The notes under the pieces: model-generated | Database searches by the model: none | Told to the model about the DNA's origin: nothing | The model's input: the letters and a program-made list of their open reading frames with translations, nothing else | NCBI GenBank assembly: GCA_029961685.1 | Contig: JARWKL010000008.1 | Coordinates: 35,031,619 to 35,095,618 of the forward strand | DNA from: Aristolochia californica | Lineage: Eukaryota > Streptophyta > Magnoliopsida > Piperales > Aristolochiaceae | Direction: 5' to 3' | DNA: 64,000 nucleotides | Part shown: positions 3,721 to 64,000 of the stretch, one piece after another | How the letters are laid out: the number at the start of each line of letters is the position of its first letter | How positions within the stretch are numbered: the first letter of the stretch is position 1 | Made by a program: the position numbers and the translations under genes

Positions 3721-5713
3721 AAAAGAGCCTTCTTTGAGTGGTGTTAGACACAATAAAGCCAAGTTGGCCAGTTAATTTGCAAAATATAATGTCTAGCCAA
3801 GTTAGCCTTCTTGACCTAGAAGACTCTGGTCCAAATCCAAGTCAACTCACCCCAGTTGTCGATCAACTTGGCAATAACCAAAACCATGAACCAAACCCAA
3901 ATATTTCATCATATAGAATTTTCTCCAATGTTAATTTGGAGTATTGAGACGTTTATATTCTTAAAATTAGAGTTTAGACTACAAAAAATGTTTGACAACA
4001 ATGTCTAAGGGAGTTGTGTGATAAGTTCCCATTTTTCTACTTCTCTCAGCTTTTTAGAAAAAAAAAAAAAAATTCTAAACTTAAACTTCGTTTCCCCATT
4101 TACCGTGGTTGTTTTAGGGGCCAAATAATTGTTGTTTTTTTTATGAAGGTTATTACTCTTAATTTTAAAGGTTCAGTGTCATTTCACTTATATTTCTATT
4201 CTAATTATCATTTTCCATGTTTTTAAAAATAATTCGGATTATTTGCTACAACTTAGGTTCGCTTATGCAACCATATCTACACAAACAATGAAAAACATTT
4301 TCTCCTTTTCTAAATTTTATATTGAAAGAAATTTCTATTAAAAAGTATCACATTTCTATTTCTATTGATGGTGTTGCAACAAAAAATAATGGAAAAATTA
4401 AATATAGTGAGCACATCTATATTTGAAATAAAATTAAAGGTTTTTTAAACATTAATAATTAGATTAGGTTTGGTTTTCCTATGATTTGCTATTGTACTAA
4501 TAGGAAACTCATTTTTTGTCCACCTACTATTTTAAAAGCAAAGGAGATACAATAAAAAAAATCACCCTAAAAGATTGAGTGTAAACACAAAAGAATTTCA
4601 GTAGTCATTTTTTTGTATAGTTTCTTGTTGGCATAAACACACCCCAGTAAGTAAATGAGTGTCTGACTATCACTTGGATTACTTTATTTTCTTTAATGAG
4701 AAGGAGAAGAGAATTTTTAATTCATTTGACATTGTTTTCTTTTATTTTCTTGTCCTTCCTTTGAAGCAATTTCTTTTACCCGTAGTGGCACAAAAAGAGA
4801 CACTTGGTTGTACAGGAAGAAGATTTTTTTTCTTCTGTTTTTTGACTACCTCACAAGAACCAAAAACAAGAAACCAACCTAACGCAAAATAAAAGCATTG
4901 GTTGTTTCCATTATACGAAGAACAATTCAGTAAATATATACATTCAAAACTGTGAAACTATTAAATTTCATAAATGAACTAGAATCCTAAGAAAAGCACA
5001 ATGTTACCGGGGCTAGTTTGGCAGTTTGGCTGCTTGAACATGAACCAGGCCTTATTAGCGGATCAAAACATTGCAAGACTTAATTGAAAATGGATAAAAA
5101 CCTTTTTGATCAACCATGTTTGTTGGTTTTATTGATGAACCAACTGACTTAGCTTGGTCAATGGGGTAATAATTATGACATAGGGTAGTTGTCCTCACAT
5201 GGTAGAGATGTAATGGGTTGGTCCCAATCTTCTCTTGTTTTTTTTTTTTTTTTTTAATAGTCCTCTCTAATGCCTACCTTAAGATTGATGGCAGAAAGGG
5301 TAAAGGCTCCTCCCCAAGTGCCACCTAGGGTGGCCCCCTCCCATGGAGATGGAAGGGGAAAGGGGGTTGTTGCCTCTATCCTTTCCCTTTTCACTTCAAC
5401 AATGGGGTTCCCTCACTTTTTTTATAAAAAGTGGTGCAACCCAACCCTTCCCTTGATTTTTTTGTTGTTGTTCTGAGCAAAAGAGTCTTTCTACTTCTTT
5501 TAGTTGTAATGAAGTTTTTGGTTTTCTAGTAATTGAGGACCTCATCATCTCTATCGCATGGAAATCCTCATTACCAAAATAAGGTTGGGTGGGTGGGGGG
5601 TTGGGGTGCAGAGTGTGGGACGCTCTGGGCTCTACCCATTCCCTCTAGAGACTGCGTTAAGGCTTGAGTTAGATGACATTACCCAAGTTCAGCCAATTGT
5701 TAAAACTAGTTGA
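3721..5713. other. Unassigned AT-rich DNA, no gene seen
   Basis: Two kilobases without recognisable coding domains, LTR ends or internal repeats. The only notable composition is a T run near 5239-5256 followed by a GC-richer stretch (5290-5370) and a G-rich patch near 5585-5610. Short open frames here have no family features. It may be old single-copy intergenic DNA into which element O was inserted. Confidence 0.4.
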
Positions 5714-6118
5714 TGTTTAATTTATGGAAAAGAGAAATACTTCATTGACTTATTTTAATTAGAGTACATGAACCTCTATTTATAATAGAGGAAGGTAGTT
5801 GAGTCCAACTACAATTAAACTACCCTTGTCCCAATTACACCCAAACTCTAAAACTTAATGATAAATCCTAGCATAATTAAATAACGTAATATAAATAGAA
5901 GACTAACGTAACTAAAATACCTTTAAACTAAAACTCCTCTATGAGACTTGCTTCCATAATAATTGTGGCTTTGTTAGACTTCTTATTGTGTAAGACTTCT
6001 TATGTCGCCTCACGTGATCATGGCGGGTCCCACATCTTACGGGCTTGGGCCCATCTTCCAACACACTTGGATGTATGGGCCTTCATTGGTCGTGTGGTCT
6101 TGGGCCCATATTCCAACA
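5714..6118 (-). repeat. 3' LTR of element O
   Basis: 405 bp, starting TGTTTAATTTATGG and ending CATATTCCAACA. The adjacent CCCCCTCAAGCTGG is the polypurine tract read on the opposite strand. It is about 55 bp shorter than the partner LTR, which carries extra copies of the GGGCCC repeat at its outer end. Confidence 0.85.
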
Positions 6119-7950
6119 TTCCCCCTCAAGCTGGGGATGAGAGAACATCATGAACTCCTAGCTTGCTACAAATGATGCATATGATCTTCTCGTATAAAAT
6201 GGCAGTCCTCCATATCTTCCAACACTCCCCCTCACGCTGGTGCTCTCTTCCATGAGGCCCAGCTAGCATAAGATAAGTGAGAGTAAAATCACTCCAAGTT
6301 TTATGAGATCATTTCATACTCTAGTCATAACCCATGCTGGAAGTAGGGCACACTCCTATCATTCTCAGGTAATGGCATTTCTATCTTTCATAGGTAGTGG
6401 GTCTATACGTAGTGCTAAGAAGTGAAGTAAAAACTCCTCCATCACTGTGTCACAACGACTCTCAAGCGATAGGAGTAATAAGCTCCTCCATCACTGTGTC
6501 CCAACCCGGGCACCGACTCTCACAGGTAGAAATAGGTGATAAATGCTTGTCATTCACAAGACAACAACAAAAGACCCACGAGTATATATATATAAGTCTC
6601 AATGAACTTAAAACACCTAACCATGATGGATTTAAACTCCCAACTGAAGGAACACGCAAAAGGTTGGCCCAAAGATGTATGTGAGAGTCAAATAAAAGAT
6701 GGTTGGAGTAATGTTGTCAAATAACCAATTGGAAATGGGTAAATAGGAAGATAGGATGTTGAGGCCATGATTTCTTCAATAATAATGTCTCATTGAAAGA
6801 GACACAATAGCTGTAGCAGAAATATGATTGAGCCCATATAACATGAACAAAACTAATAAAAATCCTTGTAAAAAGACCCATAAAATTATCCGATGCGAGT
6901 CTATACCAAATAATATGTTGACCAAGGAATATGTTATGAATACTTCAAAATAATAATCTAGCCAGAGAAATTGGATTGAGACGAGTGAAGTCAGGTGTCA
7001 CCAATAATTACCACAATTATTATTGCAAGCCAGGATTCTTGATCTTCAATATTTATTGCTCTTTCTTGTACTTCTTTTTCTATTTCTCCCCCTAAAGTTG
7101 GGTGGTAGTGGCTGTGATCCCAGTTGATGTAGAAAATTTGAAGTAGTATAGCAATAGATAATCGGTAAATGATGAAAGTCCTTAAGAATAATTAAAAGAC
7201 ATAAAATAATTCGATTAAAATTCGGATTTTTCAATGCAACAGGATAACAGCATGACCTTTGATTTTTCCAATGCGAATATATCCTTAAATATAGATCAAA
7301 TTAAATAAAATTTTTTCCTTATGAAACTATATTTAAATATATTTCATCCAAGTTTAACATCTCTTCATAAAATATACTTCTATTGAGATATAAAATCTGG
7401 TAGATTTCGGTCTCTGTAATTTGGCCGAACTAAGTACTCTTTCTCCTTTTACCAGCATAACCATTGACTCTTCTAAGATCAATATCTCCTTATAAAATAC
7501 TTAGATCGAGAATTGGTTGAATAGGTAAGAAAATAGACATATAGATATTTATTTTTGTATATAATTATTCATATAAAGTCTCGTTCTTGATAGTATGAAA
7601 TAACTCAAAAGTTGAAACTTTTTGCTACTGCTCGAACCTCTTTTGCAATCTGACTTGTGGTGCTTCGAATATCGATTTATCTTTGTAGATAATTCTGATT
7701 GCAAAAAAATAAAAACTTTTTCCTTGGAAAATAGACTTGAATATCTTTCCTTCAATATATAATATGCAATATGAAAAGCTCATTATAGAGGTGAGAATGC
7801 AAAGCAAACAACGGGTATAAGGACTGAAAAGAGAAAAAAAAAAGAAGAAGATAAATACGAACCTAAACTACTATAGATAATAGATCAGAAAAGGATCACA
7901 TTACCTTTGTGGGTTGACCGAGTCAATTCATAGAACCTGCTCTAATACCA

Positions 7951-8410
7951 TGTTGAATTTATGGAAATGAGAAATACTTCGTTGACTTATTTTAATTAGA
8001 GTACATGAACCTCTATTTATAATAGAGAAAGGTAGTAGACTCCAATTACAATTAAACAACTCTTGTCCCAATTAAACCCAAACTCTAACACTTAATGATA
8101 AGTCCTAGCATAATTAAATAACCCAGTATAAATAGAAGACTAACATAACTAAAACACCTTTAAACTGAAACTCCTCTATGAGACTTGCTTCCATAATAAT
8201 TGTGGTTCTGTTCGACTTCCTATTATGTAAGACTTCTTATGCCATCTCACATGATCATGGTGGGTCCCATATATTATGTGCTTAGGCCCATCTTCCAACA
8301 CTCTTGGATATGTGAGCCTTCCTTGGTCTTATGGGCTTGGGCCCATCTTCCAACACCCTTGGATATGTGGGCCTTCCTTGGACGTGTGGACTTGGGCCCA
8401 TATTCCAACA
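7951..8410 (-). repeat. 5' LTR of element O with internal tandem repeat
   Basis: 460 bp, TGTTGAATTTATGG to CATATTCCAACA. The outer end (about 8267-8410) consists of two to three diverged copies of a 55-65 bp unit containing TTGGGCCCATCTTCCAACA and GGGCCTTCCTTGG. On the minus strand this is the start of U3, so the LTR terminus itself has been reiterated. Confidence 0.8.
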
Positions 8411-8669
8411 ATTGAGCTATATTCGGTCAAACTTGAGACTTGTGAAAGGATTATGGAAAAATTTAGAAACAAAGTATGGGCAAGGAATTGAGTTACAACA
8501 AAAAAAAATTATAGGATGAAAACAGGATGAAGATTACCAGCTGTTGAAGACCAAATATGAAAGAGTCTTACATGACTCCCACAATAAGAAGTCTTACAAA
8601 GACAAAATTATTATGGAACCAGGTCTCACAGAAGAGTTTAAGTTTAAAAGTATTTTAGTTATGTTAGTC

Positions 8670-9026
8670 TGTTATGCACGTAATACTATTAATATTTTAA
8701 TTTTTTTTCTTTAATTTAAATTATTTTATTTCAGTTTTAGGCCATAGGGGTACTTTTGGAATATTTTCTTTATAGGGTTTTTTTGGAATATTTTATTTAT
8801 AGGGGTATTTTTATAATATTTTTTCTTAAACCCTGTGAGTGTGAACCCTATTTAAGGGATAAGAGTAATGAGAAAGAGAAACATATATTTTAGGTTAATT
8901 TTAGGTTAAACAGGCTGTGAGCTCTCCTTGACGTGTTATAGGGTTTTCAAGCTTCCCTTTGGCTTGATCTTCATCTTTCTCTTCTTCCTCCCCACGAATC
9001 CATGTGTCAGATCCGGGACTGTAACA
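8670..9026 (+). repeat. LTR, left arm of S
   Basis: 357 bp, TGTTATGCACG to GGACTGTAACA. It includes TAAACCCTGTGAGTGTGAACC and a CTATTTAAGGG TATA-like box. It is homologous, inverted, to 10004-10303 and to the minus-oriented LTR at 61871-62276. Confidence 0.75.
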
Positions 9027-10028: not shown

Positions 10029-10303
10029 GGATTTGTAGGGAAGAAGAAGAGAAAGACGAAGATCAATCCAAAGGGAAGCTTGAAACCCTAGAACTCGTCA
10101 AGGAGAGCTCCCAAACTGTTTAACCTAAAATTAACCTAAAATCAATGCTTGTATTTTTCATTACTCTTACCCCTTAAATAGGGTTCACCCTCACAGGGTT
10201 TATGATAAAATATTACAAAAATACCCCTATGGCCTAAAACTGAAATAAAATTATGTAAATTAAAGAAAAAAATTAAAATATTAATGGTATTATGGGCATA
10301 ACA
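10004..10303 (-). repeat. LTR, right arm of S
   Basis: 300 bp from TGTTACGGTCCC to GGGCATAACA on the plus strand. It reads as an LTR on the minus strand, with the PBS (minus TGGTATCAGGGT) at 9990-10001. Shared text with the left arm includes ACCCTCACAGGGTTTA and TACCCCTATGGCCTAAAACT. Confidence 0.75.
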
Positions 10304-10494
10304 TAGTCTTCTATTTATTTTGAGTTTTTAATTATGCTAGAACTTATCTTTAAGTGTTAGAGTTTGGATGTAATTGGGACAAATGTAGTTTAATTGTAAT
10401 TGGACTCTACTACTTTCCTCTATTATAAGTAGGGGTTCAGGTACTTTGATTACATCAAATCAATAAAGTTTTTCTCTTTTCCATTAATTCAACA

Positions 10495-57509: not shown

Positions 57510-58040
57510 CAAAATATCCAACCCAATATGCTTCAGCAAAGATTTTAACAGTGAGATGACCGTGGCACTTATATAAAAGCCCTCTTCCTGGAGCCTTCTA
57601 CAAGTATATGAGGATTCTTTCTAGTGCCTGCCAGTGAGAGATCTAAGGTTTGTGCATATATTAGCTCACAACACTAACTGTAAATGAGATATTTTTTCTA
57701 ATCACTGTAAGATAAATTAGTTTTTGGACCAGCCTTTGGTATTTTCCCACATCAACATCTTCACCAAAGCCTACACATCATTTCACATTTGTAACCATTG
57801 GTGTGTCAGTAGGGCTAGATCCCATCATTTTTGAGTCTTTGAGTAAGTCAAGTACATATTTTCTTTGTGATAGGATAACGTTATGCCTAAACAGAAGAAC
57901 TTTAATACCTAGTAAGTACTTGAGTAGTCCCAAGTCTTTTGTCTTGAATTCATTGTATATCTTTTGTTTGATTTGATTACATATCTTGAATTCACTGCAT
58001 ATCTTTTGGCACAACCCTCCTAGCATAAATGGGATTTAAC
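57510..58040 (-). pseudogene. Copia RT/RNase H remnant N
   Basis: Minus-strand copia fragment: NEFKTKDLGLLKYLLGIKVL, LSQRKYVLDLLKDSKMMGSS and PTDTPM, then RNase H start motifs toward 57510. A local duplication repeats GAATTCA.TG.ATATCTTTTG near 57950-58010. No LTR attached. It is probably the site into which E inserted. Confidence 0.7.
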
Positions 58041-58563
58041 AAAAATGGCATGATGGAGCTCCATTGCATATCTATATACCCTTTTTATTCCCAGCTTGAG
58101 GGGGAGAAATAGATGAAGAAGTACAAGAAAGAGGTATTTTATTCCACATGTTGTGGTAATTTTTATGTGACCAAAATATTCAAGAAAGGGAGAGCACATA
58201 GCATGAAGTTTTTACATCTATGAAAAAAAATTCATCAAAAGAAAATTGAAGACCAATAATCCTTTTCATTGCAAGCTGAAGTTATAAACTCCATCTTGAG
58301 GGGGAGTATTCAATAGCAGATATGGAAGAGTCTTACATGAATCTCATAGTAAAAAGTCTCACAGAGCCAAAATTAATATGGTTGAGTATTACAGGAGTCT
58401 CACAAGAGGGGGTCTCATAGAAGAGTCTCAGTTAAAGGTGTTTTAGTTTTGTTAGTCATCTATTTATGTTTAGTTATTCAATTGTTCTAGAACTTATATT
58501 TTAGTGTTCAGTTTTGGGTGTAACTAGGATAAGGGTAGTTTAGCTGCAATTGGATTCTACTTG
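58041..58563 (+). mobile_element. K-family 3' end with truncated LTR
   Basis: Interior text (TTTTATGTGACCAAAATATTCAAGAAAG, then a GAAGACCAATAATCC block) matches K and 29500-29640, followed by polypurine CTTGAGGGGGAG and an LTR from 58307 that is cut at 58563 by copia M. Confidence 0.75.
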
Positions 58564-60182
58564 TGTTGAATTTGGGACCCCACGAATAATACCTCTAGCA
58601 AGGAGAGAGAGAAAGAAAAAAAGGAAAAAGAGAAGAGCTCTCGGGTAGAGAGACAAGAGAAGGAAAATAAAAGAGAGTAGAGAGCGAACTTCACACAAGA
58701 GAGAAGAAAAAAAATAAGAAAGTTGCTTGATAAATTCTGAGTTACAATCATCTCTATTTATAGTTGAGGAGGTGATAGAGTCTATGTACAACAACTTACC
58801 TTAGGACTACTAATTACATTCCAACTAGAACTCTCTAAGATAAGACTATTATGATAAGATTATATTATCTATTTAAGAGACTAATTTAACTCAACAACAA
58901 ACACCTTCTTTAAGGACGTGAATCAAGCTAGCGAGCCAACTCTTGTTCTTATTTTGTGGGTCCCACATGATCTTCCAACTCATGTAGATAGAGATACCGG
59001 CTCGTGGTATCTTTGTGGGTCACACTTGATCTTCAAATCTTCTATTTAATTCTAGCACACGTTCCTTATCCCTTAGCTAGAGCCACTTTGTATGAGGACT
59101 CTTGTTGACACCTCTTGAGCTCATGGTGGGTCCCACCAGCTTGTGGGGCCATGGTGGGTCCCACCTTGTAACACTCCCCCTGAAGCTGAGGGTGAGAAAA
59201 CATTACAAATGCCCAGCTTGCTGCAAATGTTGGACAAAATTTTGTGAGTGACTGGTTTGGTGAGAATGTCTACAACTTGGTTCTGTGAAGATACATGCTG
59301 GAGAGATAAAATGTCGGTAGTGAATTTTTCTCGTATGCAGTGTCAATCTATTTATATATGCTTTGTTCTCTCATGGAAGACTAGATTTGATGTGATGTGA
59401 ATTGCGGCCTGATTATTGCAATATAGATTGATAGGAGCTTCTTTGTAAAAACCCAATTCAGTTAGGAGAGATCAGATCCATAGCAGTTCACTAACTGTGT
59501 GTGCTATGGCTTTGTACTCTACTTCTGCACTAGACCTTGCAACTACATTCTGTTTCTTGCTGCTCCATGTAACCAAGTTTCCTCCAACCATCGTACAATA
59601 TCCCAAAGTACATTTTCGATCATCCGGGGATCTAGCCTAGTCTACATCTGAGAATCCTTCGATGTTGATGTGTCCATGATTTTTATAGAACAACCGTCTT
59701 CCTGGTGCTCCTTTTAGATATTGTAGTATCCGTTCTAGTGTTTGCCAATGACTGAGTTGTGGTTTGTGCATATATTGACTTACCACACAGACTGCATATG
59801 AAATATTTACGTAGAGATAAATAAGTCTTTCTACCAATCTTTGATATTTTCTAATATCTACTTCTTCTCCAGCACCTGCACATAATTTTGTATTCGAGTC
59901 CATTGGAATTTCTATTGGTCTACATCCCAGCATTCCGGTCTCCTTCAGTAGGTCAAGGACATACTTCCTTTTAGATAATATAATTCCATGTCTAGATTGT
60001 AGTACTTCAATACCAAAAAAATATTTGACCAGTCTGAGATCCTTTGTCTTGAATTCAGTACATATTATTTCTTTTGTCTTTTGGATGCCCTCGAGATCAC
60101 TGCTAGTTATAATAATGTAATATCATCAACATATATGGCTAGAATTACCTTGCCCTTCGTTGTGTCTTTAATAAAGACAGAG
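58564..60182 (-). mobile_element. Copia element M, 3' half
   Basis: 3' LTR 58564-59173 (TGTTGAATTTGGGACCCC to CACCTTGTAACA, A/B family), polypurine tract (CTCCCCCTGAAGCT on the plus strand), then RNase H and the end of RT. The element is cut at 60182, where T begins. Its left flank is ACTTG, but the partner duplication is not in the window. Confidence 0.82.
59240..60182 (-). pseudogene. M RT C-terminus and RNase H
   Basis: From 60182 downward: SVFIKDTTKGKVILAIYVDD (catalytic YVDD at about 60120), a frameshift, FKTKDLRLVKYFFGIEVLQS, MLGCRPIEIPMDSNTKLCAG, GEEVDIRKYQRLVERLIYLY, SQYMHKPQLSHWQTLERILQ, YLKGAPGRRLFYKNHGHINI and GFSDVD, then a TAG and SSAEVEYKA-, YCNNQAA-type segments. Closest in the window to B. 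Confidence 0.82.
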
Positions 60183-60479: not shown

Positions 60480-61236
60480 ACGCAAAAATTCCCAGAGCCC
60501 TCTGCCACTCCAGCGGCAATGACATTCAAAATTAGGGACACAAATCTGAAATCAGACTCCAAACTTTCAAAATCAGACAGCAGGACTCCAAACTTTCAAA
60601 ATCAGACCCGGGAAATCCAAAATTGGATGGGTATTCTGTTAAAACCTCGCAGACATTGGACGAATTGGGTAAGACCTCTGATCCAAAATTGGGGACAATG
60701 GCAATCTCCGAGCAAGGACGCCATGCGCAACAATCTCGAGCAGGGCAAGGGAACCCAGACATTCCAAAATCATGCCAACGAGGCTCACGGCAAGCCAAAC
60801 TCCTTGCCAAACAAAAGAAGGTAATATTTTCGGCGCTTCTTCCGACCAGGATGGGTTTTTGAGAGCCCTCTGTCTCAAAAAATCTCCAAGCGGTGAAGCC
60901 TCCAAGGGTTGTTGTTCAACGTCGGAGAAGGGGGAGACTCCGTTGGCTCCGTCGGACAAATATCCACTCAACCTCGCCCTCGGAAGCTCAGCGGGGAACC
61001 ATCTTCAACAAAATTGGGATAAGCTTATGAAAATTGGTCTATTTTTTGGTCAAATCGGTTGTTCCATGAGGTTGATAGGGCTCCAAGGGCCTGAGCAGCA
61101 GCAATGCTGCACGAAAATTGGGGACAGAGGCTTTCTGTTCTGTGAAGTAGAGCAACTGAGCAATTTTGATGGAACTCGGGTTTGTTTGTATGCAATGCGA
61201 GATGGAAAACTTTTGGGTTTTCTAGAAACGGTATAG
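60480..61236 (+). other. Open but unrecognised region of T
   Basis: Two overlapping frames are open. One (60519-60824) carries repeated FQNQ.R/NWM pieces built from a 36-base repeat (CCAAACTTTCAAAATCAGAC). The other (60623-60862) reads DGYSVKTSQTLDELGKTSDP, which matches LEGYAAKTSSIRVELG on the minus strand of S near 9330. The frame 60772-61236 (154 codons) has no family I recognise. Confidence 0.35.
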
Positions 61237-61383: not shown

Positions 61384-61890
61384 ATGTTTTGGATGTTGTT
61401 TGATTTTTCTACTACAGAGAACAGTAGCAATGAGCCTCTTCCAATTTCTATTGCACGCATGGATGAAGGACATGTTTCAGATTCTTTGCTGAATGGAGAT
61501 AGAATTCTTTTGAGTAGTCAAATTGATAACGGGGTGTTGTCAATTTTTCTGTGGAGGAATTATATCAATTTTTCTGGGATGAATTATCTAGTTTTGGATG
61601 AACACTGCAACAATGTGACTGTTTCGGGTCATTGTTCCAACAGTAGCAGTCCATTTCAACAGGTTGGTTTAAATTTTTTGGCTGTTATGTATGCTGCTCG
61701 TATAGATTCTGAGTTGCATTTGTCCCAAGGAACCCTTAGGGAACGAAAGGGGGAGCCACAAGATTCATACGATGATCTATTTGAACTGGGTACTGAAAAA
61801 CACTGTAACCAGACGACAGCAAATCCCCTCCAAGAAAATTCCACCACAGACTCTGAAATACATGTAGTTGTGTTACGGTCTCGGATCTGA
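61384..61890 (+). CDS. Unknown 168-codon frame in T, ends in neighbouring LTR
   Basis: Open from 61384 to TGA at 61888-61890. It contains SNSSSPFQQVGLNFLAVMYA and an acidic/polar tail with DSYDDLFELGTEKH. A diverged copy of the first motif lies just upstream in another frame (61312-61375, reading FEHLGFNFLDPMYAA). No zinc knuckle, no transmembrane segment, no known domain. The last six codons come from the adjoining LTR. The first ATG inside is at about 61459 (MDEGHVSD). It may be a decayed gag/capsid segment. Confidence 0.35.
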   Translation: MFWMLFDFSTTENSSNEPLPISIARMDEGHVSDSLLNGDRILLSSQIDNGVLSIFLWRNYINFSGMNYLVLDEHCNNVTVSGHCSNSSSPFQQVGLNFLAVMYAARIDSELHLSQGTLRERKGEPQDSYDDLFELGTEKHCNQTTANPLQENSTTDSEIHVVVLRSRI

Positions 61891-62276
61891 CACAAGGATT
61901 CTTTGGGAGGATCTGGGATCTGCCACAGGTTATGGGTCTTCCATGCATTACTGTAGGGATAGTAAGAAGACATGGGGAAGACGAAGATCAATGGAGGATG
62001 AGAGAATATGTGGGTTTTTGAGGAAAACCTTAACCTCGAGATCAAGAAGGTGATCTCAAGCCTGTTTACACTAGATTTAACCTAATTCTCAAAGCTTGTG
62101 TTTCTCATTACTCTTACCCCTTAAATAGGGTTCACCCAGTTAGGGTTTAATATAAATATTACAAAAATACCCCTATAAATAAAATATTCCAAAAAAATAC
62201 CCCTGTGGCCTAAACTGAAATAAAATAAAGTAAATTAAATAAAAAATAAAATAATAATGTTATTGTGTTCATAACA
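61871..62276 (-). repeat. 3' LTR of gypsy-type element U
   Basis: 406 bp, TGTTACGGTCTCGG to GTGTTCATAACA, homologous to the arms of S (shared TACCCCTTAAATAGGGTTCACC, TACCCCTGTGGCCTAAACTG). To its right is a polypurine tract on the minus strand (AGTGGGGGTGTAA) and a pol C-terminus, so it is a 3' LTR whose element extends rightward off the window. Confidence 0.82.
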
Positions 62277-62427
62277 TTACACCCCCACTAGAAGAACGAG
62301 CTTGTCCTCAAGCTCAAAGTTAGGTCTACGTGCCCGTGCCGAGGTCTCCATCCTTTCTCAAGCGTCAACCACAGTATCTGTGGCAGCCCTCTGGCTTACA
62401 AAACTAAAACATCCACCTAGAGAAGCA
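62277..62427 (-). pseudogene. Gypsy pol C-terminal codons and PPT of U
   Basis: Minus strand TARARRPNFELEDKLVLLVGV-like end; the segment PNFELEDKL is the same pol terminus seen in H (FELEDKLFL) and I (ELEDKL). One TGA lies upstream (near 62370) in the frame that reads ATDTVVDA. The tract AGTGGGGGTG before the LTR is the plus-strand primer. Confidence 0.72.
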
Positions 62428-62440
62428 TTTTTTTTTTTTT
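62428..62440 (-). other. A13 run, possible captured poly(A) tail
   Basis: T13 on the plus strand, i.e. 13 A on the strand that encodes the chimera, 42 bases after its last stop codon and before the gypsy pol sequence. Fits a short mRNA tail copied during capture. A random A run is the alternative. Confidence 0.5.
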
Positions 62441-62482
62441 GGATCTCCCTCTTGCAGTTTTATGTTTCGCTGCTAGACCTCC

Positions 62483-62857
62483 TCATCCCCAGGTGGTAGT
62501 AATTTCAAAATACCTAGGGCGACGATTGACTAAGAGCACAACTATCCTATAGTTGGAGAGTGGTCCAGCCCATATCGCAAGATCTCCCTCCATGCGAACT
62601 GTCTTAGCTTGAACACCAAGATGATCTTGGTTCACTGCTACCACTTCCTTATTGCCAATAATTTGCAAGGTTTCCTTGGTGGCATTCCACACATCACATC
62701 CGATTAGGAGAGGTGCCTTACAGGTAACCCATAAATTGAAGTGTGTGATGTATTCATCATTGGTCATACCTCCATTTCCTACCTCAAGCATGTATGGATC
62801 ATACCAACCACCAGGTCGTGCAAGCTCAGCATACACTTTCTTCATATCAACGCTGGA
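62483..62857 (-). pseudogene. Alpha-galactosidase (GH27) fragment
   Basis: Begins [18 protein letters not shown] and continues [78 protein letters not shown] and VVLLVNRRP, the conserved C-terminal half of the GH27 barrel and start of the beta domain in plant enzymes. The consensus WNDPDM reads WYDPYM here. The catalytic nucleophile and acid/base Asp of the family lie N-terminal to this segment. It is cut short of the usual C-terminus. Confidence 0.9.
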
Positions 62858-63919
62858 GACCATGCCCTCTTCAACTTTTCTAGCACTCCGCAAAGCACTC
62901 AACCCCGGTTCTTTTGGCCTCTCCAACTCCTTAGCACAGCCCTCCGGATCATGAGTAGCAATCCCAAGGAAGTGCCCAAGACCATGAAGCATGAAAACAG
63001 CACCCAATCTCTCAGCCATCATATCATCAACATCACCATTAATTAAGCCACCAGCCACCAATGACCCAAGAATAACTTTCTCTGCTAGCTTGTGCATGTC
63101 CATCCAGCTTACTCCAGATCTCATTGTAGAGACAACGTCATTATGGGCCTTAATGACTGCATTATAGATAAGAAGTTGATCACTCGTAAATTTACTATTC
63201 ACAGGAAAAGAACAAGTTATGTCAGAACCATAAAAATGGTATTCAGCTCCCATATCTAGAAGTGTCATGTCACCATCGTGTAAGATCCTGTCATTTGGAG
63301 CAGCAGCATGCCCATAATGAAGAACAGAGCTACTTTCACTAGTAGCACATATGCATGTGTATGAACAATATCTACTGCCTCCATACATGTACATAGGATG
63401 GAGAAACATGATCCCCAACTGATACTCTTTCATGCCCAATTTTGTTTTGAGCATAACCTCAATATGAGCCTCCAAACTTATATCATTACCATACTATATG
63501 AGTTCAAGCTCCATTCCCGACTTAAATATACGGCATTCAGTCAAGAAAGGATGCAATGTACTACAGTCTATTTCAAACTTCTCCATTTCCTCAAGCTCTG
63601 CAGGTTTGGAAAATTTGTTGCTATCAGTATTAAGCCCGTACAAGAGAAACAAGAATGGCTTTCCCAATCCTTGGTAGTGATCATAAAGCACCTTCACCAT
63701 CTGATCAGTGTAGCAAACCATGTTGACCATGTATCTTTGGTTGAAGTATGATAAGGGCTTTATTTCTCCCAGCCAAACAACATAATCAACAATCAACCTG
63801 GGAGCAAAGAGGATGGATTTTCCAGAAGCAATGTTTATTGCCCCATAAAATTCAGGTTCCCTTACTCCAATTAGGTAAGCAAAATAACTCTCTTGCCTGA
63901 AGAGTATGACATTCATAGT
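62858..63919 (-). pseudogene. Prolidase (Xaa-Pro dipeptidase, M24B) fragment
   Basis: Most of a plant prolidase. N-terminal domain: ILFRQESYFAYLIGVREPEF, WLGEIKPLSYF, YGLNTDS, FEIDCSTLHPFLTECR. Then a TAG at 63494-63496 in LELI*YGNDIS. Pita-bread domain: [47 protein letters not shown] (two metal-binding Asp kept) and [11 protein letters not shown] (metal-binding His kept, preceding Pro changed to Leu). It ends at RKVEEGMV, just before the stretch that carries the two metal-binding Glu, so the dinuclear Mn site cannot form. Confidence 0.92.
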
Positions 63920-64000
63920 ACACCTCTTTGCACACTTAGGGGTGGAATACACAGGTTCACAACCCGGATGTCCACAACCAATGTCATCACAATAAGGGTC
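63920..64000 (-). pseudogene. Cathepsin B-like cysteine protease fragment
   Basis: 27 codons at the window edge: DPYCDDIGCGHPGCEP and VYSTPKCAKRC. The Cys-rich GC.HPGCEP.Y.TPKC..KC pattern is characteristic of the region around the occluding loop of plant cathepsin B (peptidase C1A). The fragment joins prolidase at about codon TMNV (63919-63908). Its 5' continuation is outside the window. Confidence 0.85.

Follow-up and report, generated by a model that had tools for sequence, protein, structure and literature searches.

Introduction

The closest described system is Bs1 of maize, an LTR element in which pieces of a plasma-membrane ATPase, a xylan endohydrolase and a beta-1,3-glucanase form one chimeric gene, according to the accessible part of the source (PMC13317346). 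The family described here, found in Aristolochia californica, resembles Bs1 in being an LTR element that carries segments of several host genes, spliced in the case of prolidase and alpha-galactosidase, and differs from it in that 15 host gene families appear in several combinations, together with recombination between mosaics and no sign of selection on the protein. Bs1 is therefore the precedent, and what is new is the serial, combinatorial capture across a many-copy family. Moreover, host gene capture by LTR elements has been described genome-wide in a published survey, as far as its accessible sections go; the same process was found in A. californica, here within one LTR family with serial multi-gene mosaics. 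A jump between co-packaged RNAs was proposed by Sabot and Schulman for the LTR chimeras Veju and BARE-1 (available sections of PMC13317346 and PMC1950507). The mechanism proposed below is the same, while the acceptor templates in A. californica include many host mRNAs. Pack-MULEs and Helitrons are DNA elements without LTRs, and they usually keep introns. Host gene pieces are also combined by Pack-MULEs and by capturing Helitrons (accessible part of PMC13317346). Unlike them, the A. californica family has LTRs, and two of its gene pieces have no introns. In the open-access literature that was searched, no LTR family was found that occurs in many copies and has captured several genes serially, either in Aristolochia or elsewhere.

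In the following, a locus of A. californica and its relatives are described, for which the preferred reading, given a probability of nearly nine in ten, is that an LTR family repeatedly captured spliced host gene pieces and multiplied and recombined the resulting mosaics by template switching, with the pieces as neutral cargo.

Architecture of the element

The window, i.e. the whole stretch of 64,000 bp analysed, corresponds to G000:C500:35031619-35095618 in the 660-Mb genome that was searched (G000), and positions given as window-equivalent continue its numbering beyond 64000. The contents of 61866-64000 (minus strand) are the 3' part of a probably non-autonomous LTR retrotransposon of about 4.6 kb. 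The 3' LTR (61871-62276, minus strand, TGTTATG...CGTAACA) was 95.6% identical over 405 aligned sites to a 5' LTR of 408 bp, found by reading beyond 64000 (window-equivalent 66039-66446). Thus, the LTR that the initial annotation had placed next to the gene pieces was present and could be specified as the 3' LTR of the same element, and the 5' LTR expected to the right of 64000 lay within element length. The 3' target-site duplication (61866-61870, minus strand) read CAACT vs. CAGCT at the 5' end, with one mismatch. From 5' to 3', the element was composed of the 5' LTR, a PBS-like site, a leader, pieces of beta-xylosidase, cathepsin B, prolidase and alpha-galactosidase, a gypsy-like tail, a polypurine tract and the 3' LTR. 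The PBS-like site (ACTGGTATCAGAGC-like) appeared after the 5' LTR and presumably matches the initiator tRNA, while the polypurine tract (AGGGGGTGTAA-like) appeared before the 3' LTR. The features expected of an LTR retrotransposon were hence found, namely a pair of LTRs with TG...CA ends, bounded by a 5-bp target duplication, on the one hand, and a PBS-like site with a polypurine tract, on the other. The divergence of the LTR pair (K2P 0.046) corresponded to 1.8 or 3.6 My at two assumed rates; all the ages given for these elements hinge on the substitution rate assumed.

The 3' tail (62277-62482, minus strand) comprised an A-run, a short stretch resembling the end of a Ty3/gypsy pol (FELEDK...) and the polypurine tract GTGGGGGTGTAA. 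In particular, it presented a short match (63 bp, 81%) to the 3' end of the gypsy element found in one of the sibling copies (c07), and the tails of the copies matched that same end over 40-68 bp at 80-90%. The end of the c07 gypsy element bears Ty3/gypsy-type integrase C-terminal domains. Neither reverse transcriptase nor integrase was seen by eye in a three-frame read-out of the window copy, and the search for an autonomous partner with the same LTR yielded only this short 3'-end similarity to another gypsy element.

Other sequences of related type were observed in the window. On the opposite strand, some 0.7 kb past the 3' LTR of the chimeric element, the stretch 60733-61204 (plus strand) resembled the leader of the family (75% to c08 and 78% to c03 over part of it), and by this similarity it appears to be the remains of a second family member. 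Furthermore, an inverted pair at 8670-9026 (plus strand) and 10083-10304 (minus strand) showed 74-88% identity to LTRs of this family and enclosed pieces resembling the leader. The stretch 57778-60122 (minus strand) contained ORFs that, by their motifs, we take to be Ty1/copia reverse transcriptase and RNase H.

Gene pieces and their parents

Four host gene pieces were found in the element. The alpha-galactosidase (GH27) piece occupied 62483-62857 (minus strand; Pfam Melibiase_2, 5e-13; PDB, 1e-39), with the parent exons aligning contiguously, and bordered on the prolidase (M24B) piece at 62858-63911 (minus strand; PDB by phmmer, E-values of 3e-74 and 1.7e-31; Pfam M24, 5.8e-35, and AMP_N, 2e-16). 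The cathepsin B (C1A) piece filled 63912-64000 (minus strand), being recognisable to 63920, and extended to the right up to window-equivalent 64204, with 89% identity in the window copy. The fourth piece, a GH3 beta-xylosidase, was located at window-equivalent 64325-64808. Moreover, the Pfam profiles Peptidase_C1 (2.6e-21, cathepsin B) and Glyco_hydro_3 were both found in the sibling copy c02. Among the matches listed, the best one to the fused frame was the A. californica prolidase P0001. These searches bore out the cathepsin B, prolidase and alpha-galactosidase pieces that the initial annotation had read on the minus strand, as well as its suspicion of more gene pieces beyond 64000. The pieces are joined head to tail as it had described, but an in-frame TAG stop in the prolidase piece (63494-63496, minus strand) splits what had been taken for one frame. 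Of the two joins then placed at 62858 and 63919, the former agreed with the prolidase/alpha-galactosidase join at 62857/62858, where at least 5 bp (ATGGT) are common to both sides (the prolidase side of this overlap being deduced from the protein P0001), while the cathepsin B/prolidase join lay a few bases off, at about 63911/63912. The join between alpha-galactosidase and the tail reads into a stop. That account did not contain the fourth piece; it also lacked the stop codon, the 19 additional loci mapped here and the wider family with its other gene combinations. In addition, the window copy has a 57-bp tandem duplication within its beta-xylosidase piece (window-equivalent about 64746-64866; 7620-7740 in c01), which was present in c02 and c12 and absent in the relative m2.

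The prolidase and alpha-galactosidase parents were intron-split. Exon matches to prolidase spread over about 30 kb (C46:6044485-6074298), and those to alpha-galactosidase appeared at C500:136789-137405, with a more distant paralogue on C13 (35.61 Mb). Four parent exons of prolidase and the alpha-galactosidase stretch were compared with the copies, in which they follow one another directly and the introns are gone. Therefore, the prolidase and alpha-galactosidase pieces derive from spliced RNA, these being the two genes for which intron loss was shown directly. Identity between the 20 loci described below and these parents was 93-96% over up to 705 sites. For beta-xylosidase, a candidate parent was found as split matches at C500:39.35 Mb (80-83% protein identity), and for cathepsin B as split matches at C221:48.31 Mb. 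As the prolidase and alpha-galactosidase parents were separate intron-containing genes, with no old fused gene, and an LTR did lie to the right of 64000, the capture of host genes by a plant LTR retrotransposon, as initially suggested, is supported.

Sibling loci and the wider family

A total of 20 loci, including that of the window (c01), were picked by similarity to the prolidase-alpha-galactosidase ORF and mapped by tblastn; at least one further alpha-galactosidase fragment (C13:26697573) lies outside this set. The alpha-galactosidase piece was present in all 20 loci and the prolidase piece in 19, and every host gene piece mapped was in sense orientation. The combination beta-xylosidase-cathepsin B-prolidase-alpha-galactosidase appeared in c01, c02 and c12. 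An ILR1-like M20 hydrolase and a piece called unk preceded prolidase in c04, c06, c08, c10, c16 and c18, and GRP94 was found upstream of ILR1-like, unk and prolidase in c03, c07, c11, c13, c14 and c17. One locus (c20) presented a PMT methyltransferase, unk and a longer alpha-galactosidase piece without prolidase, while c05, c09, c15 and c19 were shortened or atypical. The HSP90 and M20 pieces, which we take to be GRP94 and ILR1-like, respectively, were recognised by Pfam, with M20 just below the cut-off and M20_dimer above it in the relative m5. Six-frame reading of unk gave no identity, and a protein search with its region returned a single protein, a gene model of A. californica whose match lay on the PMT side. 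The 13 copies with both LTRs showed LTR identities from 88% to 97% and 5-bp target duplications that were exact in nine cases and had one mismatch in four, that of c05 being read under the assumption of a changed LTR start.

Some of these loci presented particularities. In c07, a gag-prolidase fusion was considered as a capture and ruled out, as a gypsy element flanked by a TACAG duplication has inserted into the prolidase piece. This element (L015, oriented 3789-9005) has a 1539-aa frame and repeats 99.76% identical over 412 bp; it is young, and its gag start is in frame with prolidase by accident. In c09 (L017 and L037), the 3' end of the prolidase-alpha-galactosidase core meets a different gypsy-like LTR, suggesting that the core moved between LTR families. 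The locus c08 (L016) sits within a long tandem-repeat array with units of about 0.5 kb.

Searches with the mosaics as queries returned at least the following additional arrangements: beta-xylosidase-cathepsin B without prolidase, beta-xylosidase alone, GRP94 without an adjoining ILR1 match, and PMT with unk without an adjoining alpha-galactosidase match. Five relatives (m1-m5), chosen partly for their long open frames, all matched the LTR family of the window (71-91%), with an LTR on both sides in four of them, while m4 runs into an N stretch. An unnamed gene, beta-xylosidase and a cathepsin B tail (by eye) were read in m1, for whose first gene Pfam gave nothing beyond GH3 and PDB gave no name. 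By Pfam, m2 combined beta-xylosidase, cathepsin B and PDI, m3 combined PMT, GH1 and calreticulin, and m5 combined ILR1-like, kinase, GH1 and QWRF within a single frame of 864 aa, together with a short stretch that resembled calreticulin by eye; m4 carried GRP94 (tblastn). An LTR-only search gave 3469 first-look candidates, and the sample drawn from it leans to LTRs near that of the window, as only 40 of them were scored. From these, 16 loci were sampled, leaving out matches adjoining known gene-bearing loci. The polypurine-tract end was found in 11 of the 16, and recognisable host gene pieces in seven of those 11, a count that excludes L053, L058, L060, L061 and L062 for having no such end. 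The seven were L050 (GRP94 with VSR and xylose isomerase), L056 and L057 (VSR, by eye in L057), L052, L054 and L065 (PRMT, by eye in L054 and by 92-93% identity to L052 and L054 in L065) and L059 (PDI); no recognisable gene was seen in L051, L055, L063 and L064. A weak BRCT match in L054 (E-value of 0.0018) was below the cut-off. Overall, 15 host gene families were captured according to Pfam or PDB matches, in several combinations across copies.

In L059 (oriented about 654-1250), some 40 residues of a gypsy gag shared a reading frame with the C-terminal region of PDI, followed by the gypsy-like tail; this may be a trace of primary capture or a product of genomic recombination. Moreover, two A. 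californica proteins at NCBI, P0121 (557 aa, uncharacterized) and P0122 (501 aa, 'probable methyltransferase PMT24'), have the make-up of mosaics from this family, which is a warning for annotation.

Recombination between mosaics and phase of the joins

The internal region of the window element was 89-92% identical to m2 up to cathepsin B, and 88-95% identical to the ILR1 and GRP94 types from prolidase on, so that both kinds hand over at the cathepsin B/prolidase border. By these identities, two older mosaics seem to have recombined to give the window element, and a single template switch between two co-packaged element RNAs would be the simplest reading. In the tree of the prolidase-alpha-galactosidase core, Type I copies formed a clade with 100% bootstrap, while the other types were intermixed, mostly with low support. 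Among the 20 loci, type differences sit 5' of the common end of the alpha-galactosidase piece. This pattern would be expected of minus-strand synthesis that begins at the 3' end and switches template before it has arrived at the 5' end. In m2, m3 and m5, the 3' end also varies between lineages.

The count of in-frame joins was biased upward, since joins were judged from open frames. The least biased were those from copies for which resemblance to the prolidase-alpha-galactosidase ORF was the sole ground of selection, where all four joins were in frame (chance of 1/81): beta-xylosidase/cathepsin B, GRP94/ILR1-like and, both through unk, ILR1-like/prolidase and PMT/alpha-galactosidase, each scored in a copy without a frameshift between the pieces.

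Proposed mechanism and alternative explanations

For the repeated capture proposed here, we infer that a related Ty3/gypsy element would provide the particles in trans and that, during reverse transcription, the enzyme would jump from the element RNA to a host mRNA packaged with it and then return. Later captures in the prolidase-alpha-galactosidase lineage would replace the part 5' of the jump, and mosaic RNAs packaged together would recombine through the same kind of jump. The left half of the window element, up to cathepsin B, would thereby come from an element like beta-xylosidase-cathepsin B-PDI, and the right half from the prolidase-alpha-galactosidase lineage. The pieces, as neutral cargo, would keep an internal region between the cis signals. 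Against template switching stand the A-run of the 3' tail, for which it offers no explanation, and the failure to find an autonomous partner; some joins could be the result of later genomic recombination. This family indicates that LTR elements are capable of the combinatorial, serial gene shuffling usually credited to Pack-MULEs and Helitrons, and its many copies, whose joins can be dated, provide a natural record of template switching by reverse transcriptase.

It is very unlikely that a new chimeric gene is under selection, with the fused frame giving a useful protein, as has been proposed for Bs1. Long open frames (1127 aa in c08 and the one in m5), mosaics annotated as proteins by NCBI and joins judged mostly in frame, albeit by a biased reading, would be compatible with it. 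However, at least one stop appeared in 13 of the 20 loci within the part examined, i.e. prolidase-alpha-galactosidase, to which the whole selection analysis refers. The median pairwise dN/dS was 0.95 (153 pairs, 18 copies), with values of 1.00-3.40 for the pairs including the window copy, although those including c03 were lower (0.54-1.00). The ratio of non-synonymous to synonymous changes was 3.03 for changes in a single copy (230/76), 4.67 for those in two copies (42/9) and 3.22 for those in three or more (29/9), compared to a neutral expectation of 3.33 under the same mutation spectrum. Hence, purifying selection on the chimeric protein was not detected in this part by either of these two tests (pairwise dN/dS and the N/S spectrum). 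From parent to copy, the pooled pN and pS were 0.0475 and 0.0771, respectively, and single dN/dS values were 0.39-0.95, which favour constraint but include the constrained branch of the parent. Among the 90 shared changes, one stop was found vs. about four expected, a deficit that was not significant. The substitutions thus fit neutrality, and the gene pieces look like passengers.

Joins made at the DNA level, either by successive single-gene retrocopies inserted into LTR elements or by Pack-MULE or Helitron capture, are very unlikely. Nested insertion is known in the family from the young gypsy element in the prolidase piece of c07; however, the captured pieces come from the interior of coding regions and run in the sense direction, and at the two joins that were read closely the pieces abut with no target duplication or poly(A) of their own. 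The prolidase and alpha-galactosidase pieces have lost their introns, and the whole unit is bounded by LTRs and 5-bp duplications in place of terminal inverted repeats or Helitron ends. Lastly, nothing was found in favour of a single retrocopy of an old fused host gene, which is exceedingly improbable given the separate intron-split parents of prolidase (C46) and alpha-galactosidase (C500) and the different gene combinations of the mapped copies. Moreover, among the 120 matches listed out of 2651 to the fused ORF (from 5.8 billion proteins), none was named or domain-annotated as such a fusion.

Captured genes and the secretory pathway

A tentative extension of repeated capture, about which we are rather doubtful, is that the family acts as a continuing exon-shuffling machine that would draw mainly on ER-translated mRNAs, because particles would assemble at the ER, with an RNA-level filter that would favour in-frame joins (e.g. 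through escape from nonsense-mediated decay) and would not act on protein function. Eleven of 16 named captured genes, i.e. the 15 recognised by Pfam or PDB plus the weak BRCT match, counting named pieces only, are presumably secretory, ER, Golgi or vacuolar (GRP94, PDI, calreticulin, cathepsin B, beta-xylosidase, alpha-galactosidase, GH1, ILR1-like, PMT, VSR and xylose isomerase). The binomial chance of at least 11 of 16 was 0.0003 at an assumed background of 25% and 0.019 at an assumed 40%, for a non-random gene sample in which expression level is a confounder. In yeast, Ty1 RNA is translated at the ER, and this translation nucleates the sites of particle assembly, according to the available part of the source (PMC3945221). 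If the secretory bias were true, the captured genes would report where plant retrotransposon particles meet cellular mRNA. The three genes captured by Bs1 presumably also encode secreted or membrane proteins.
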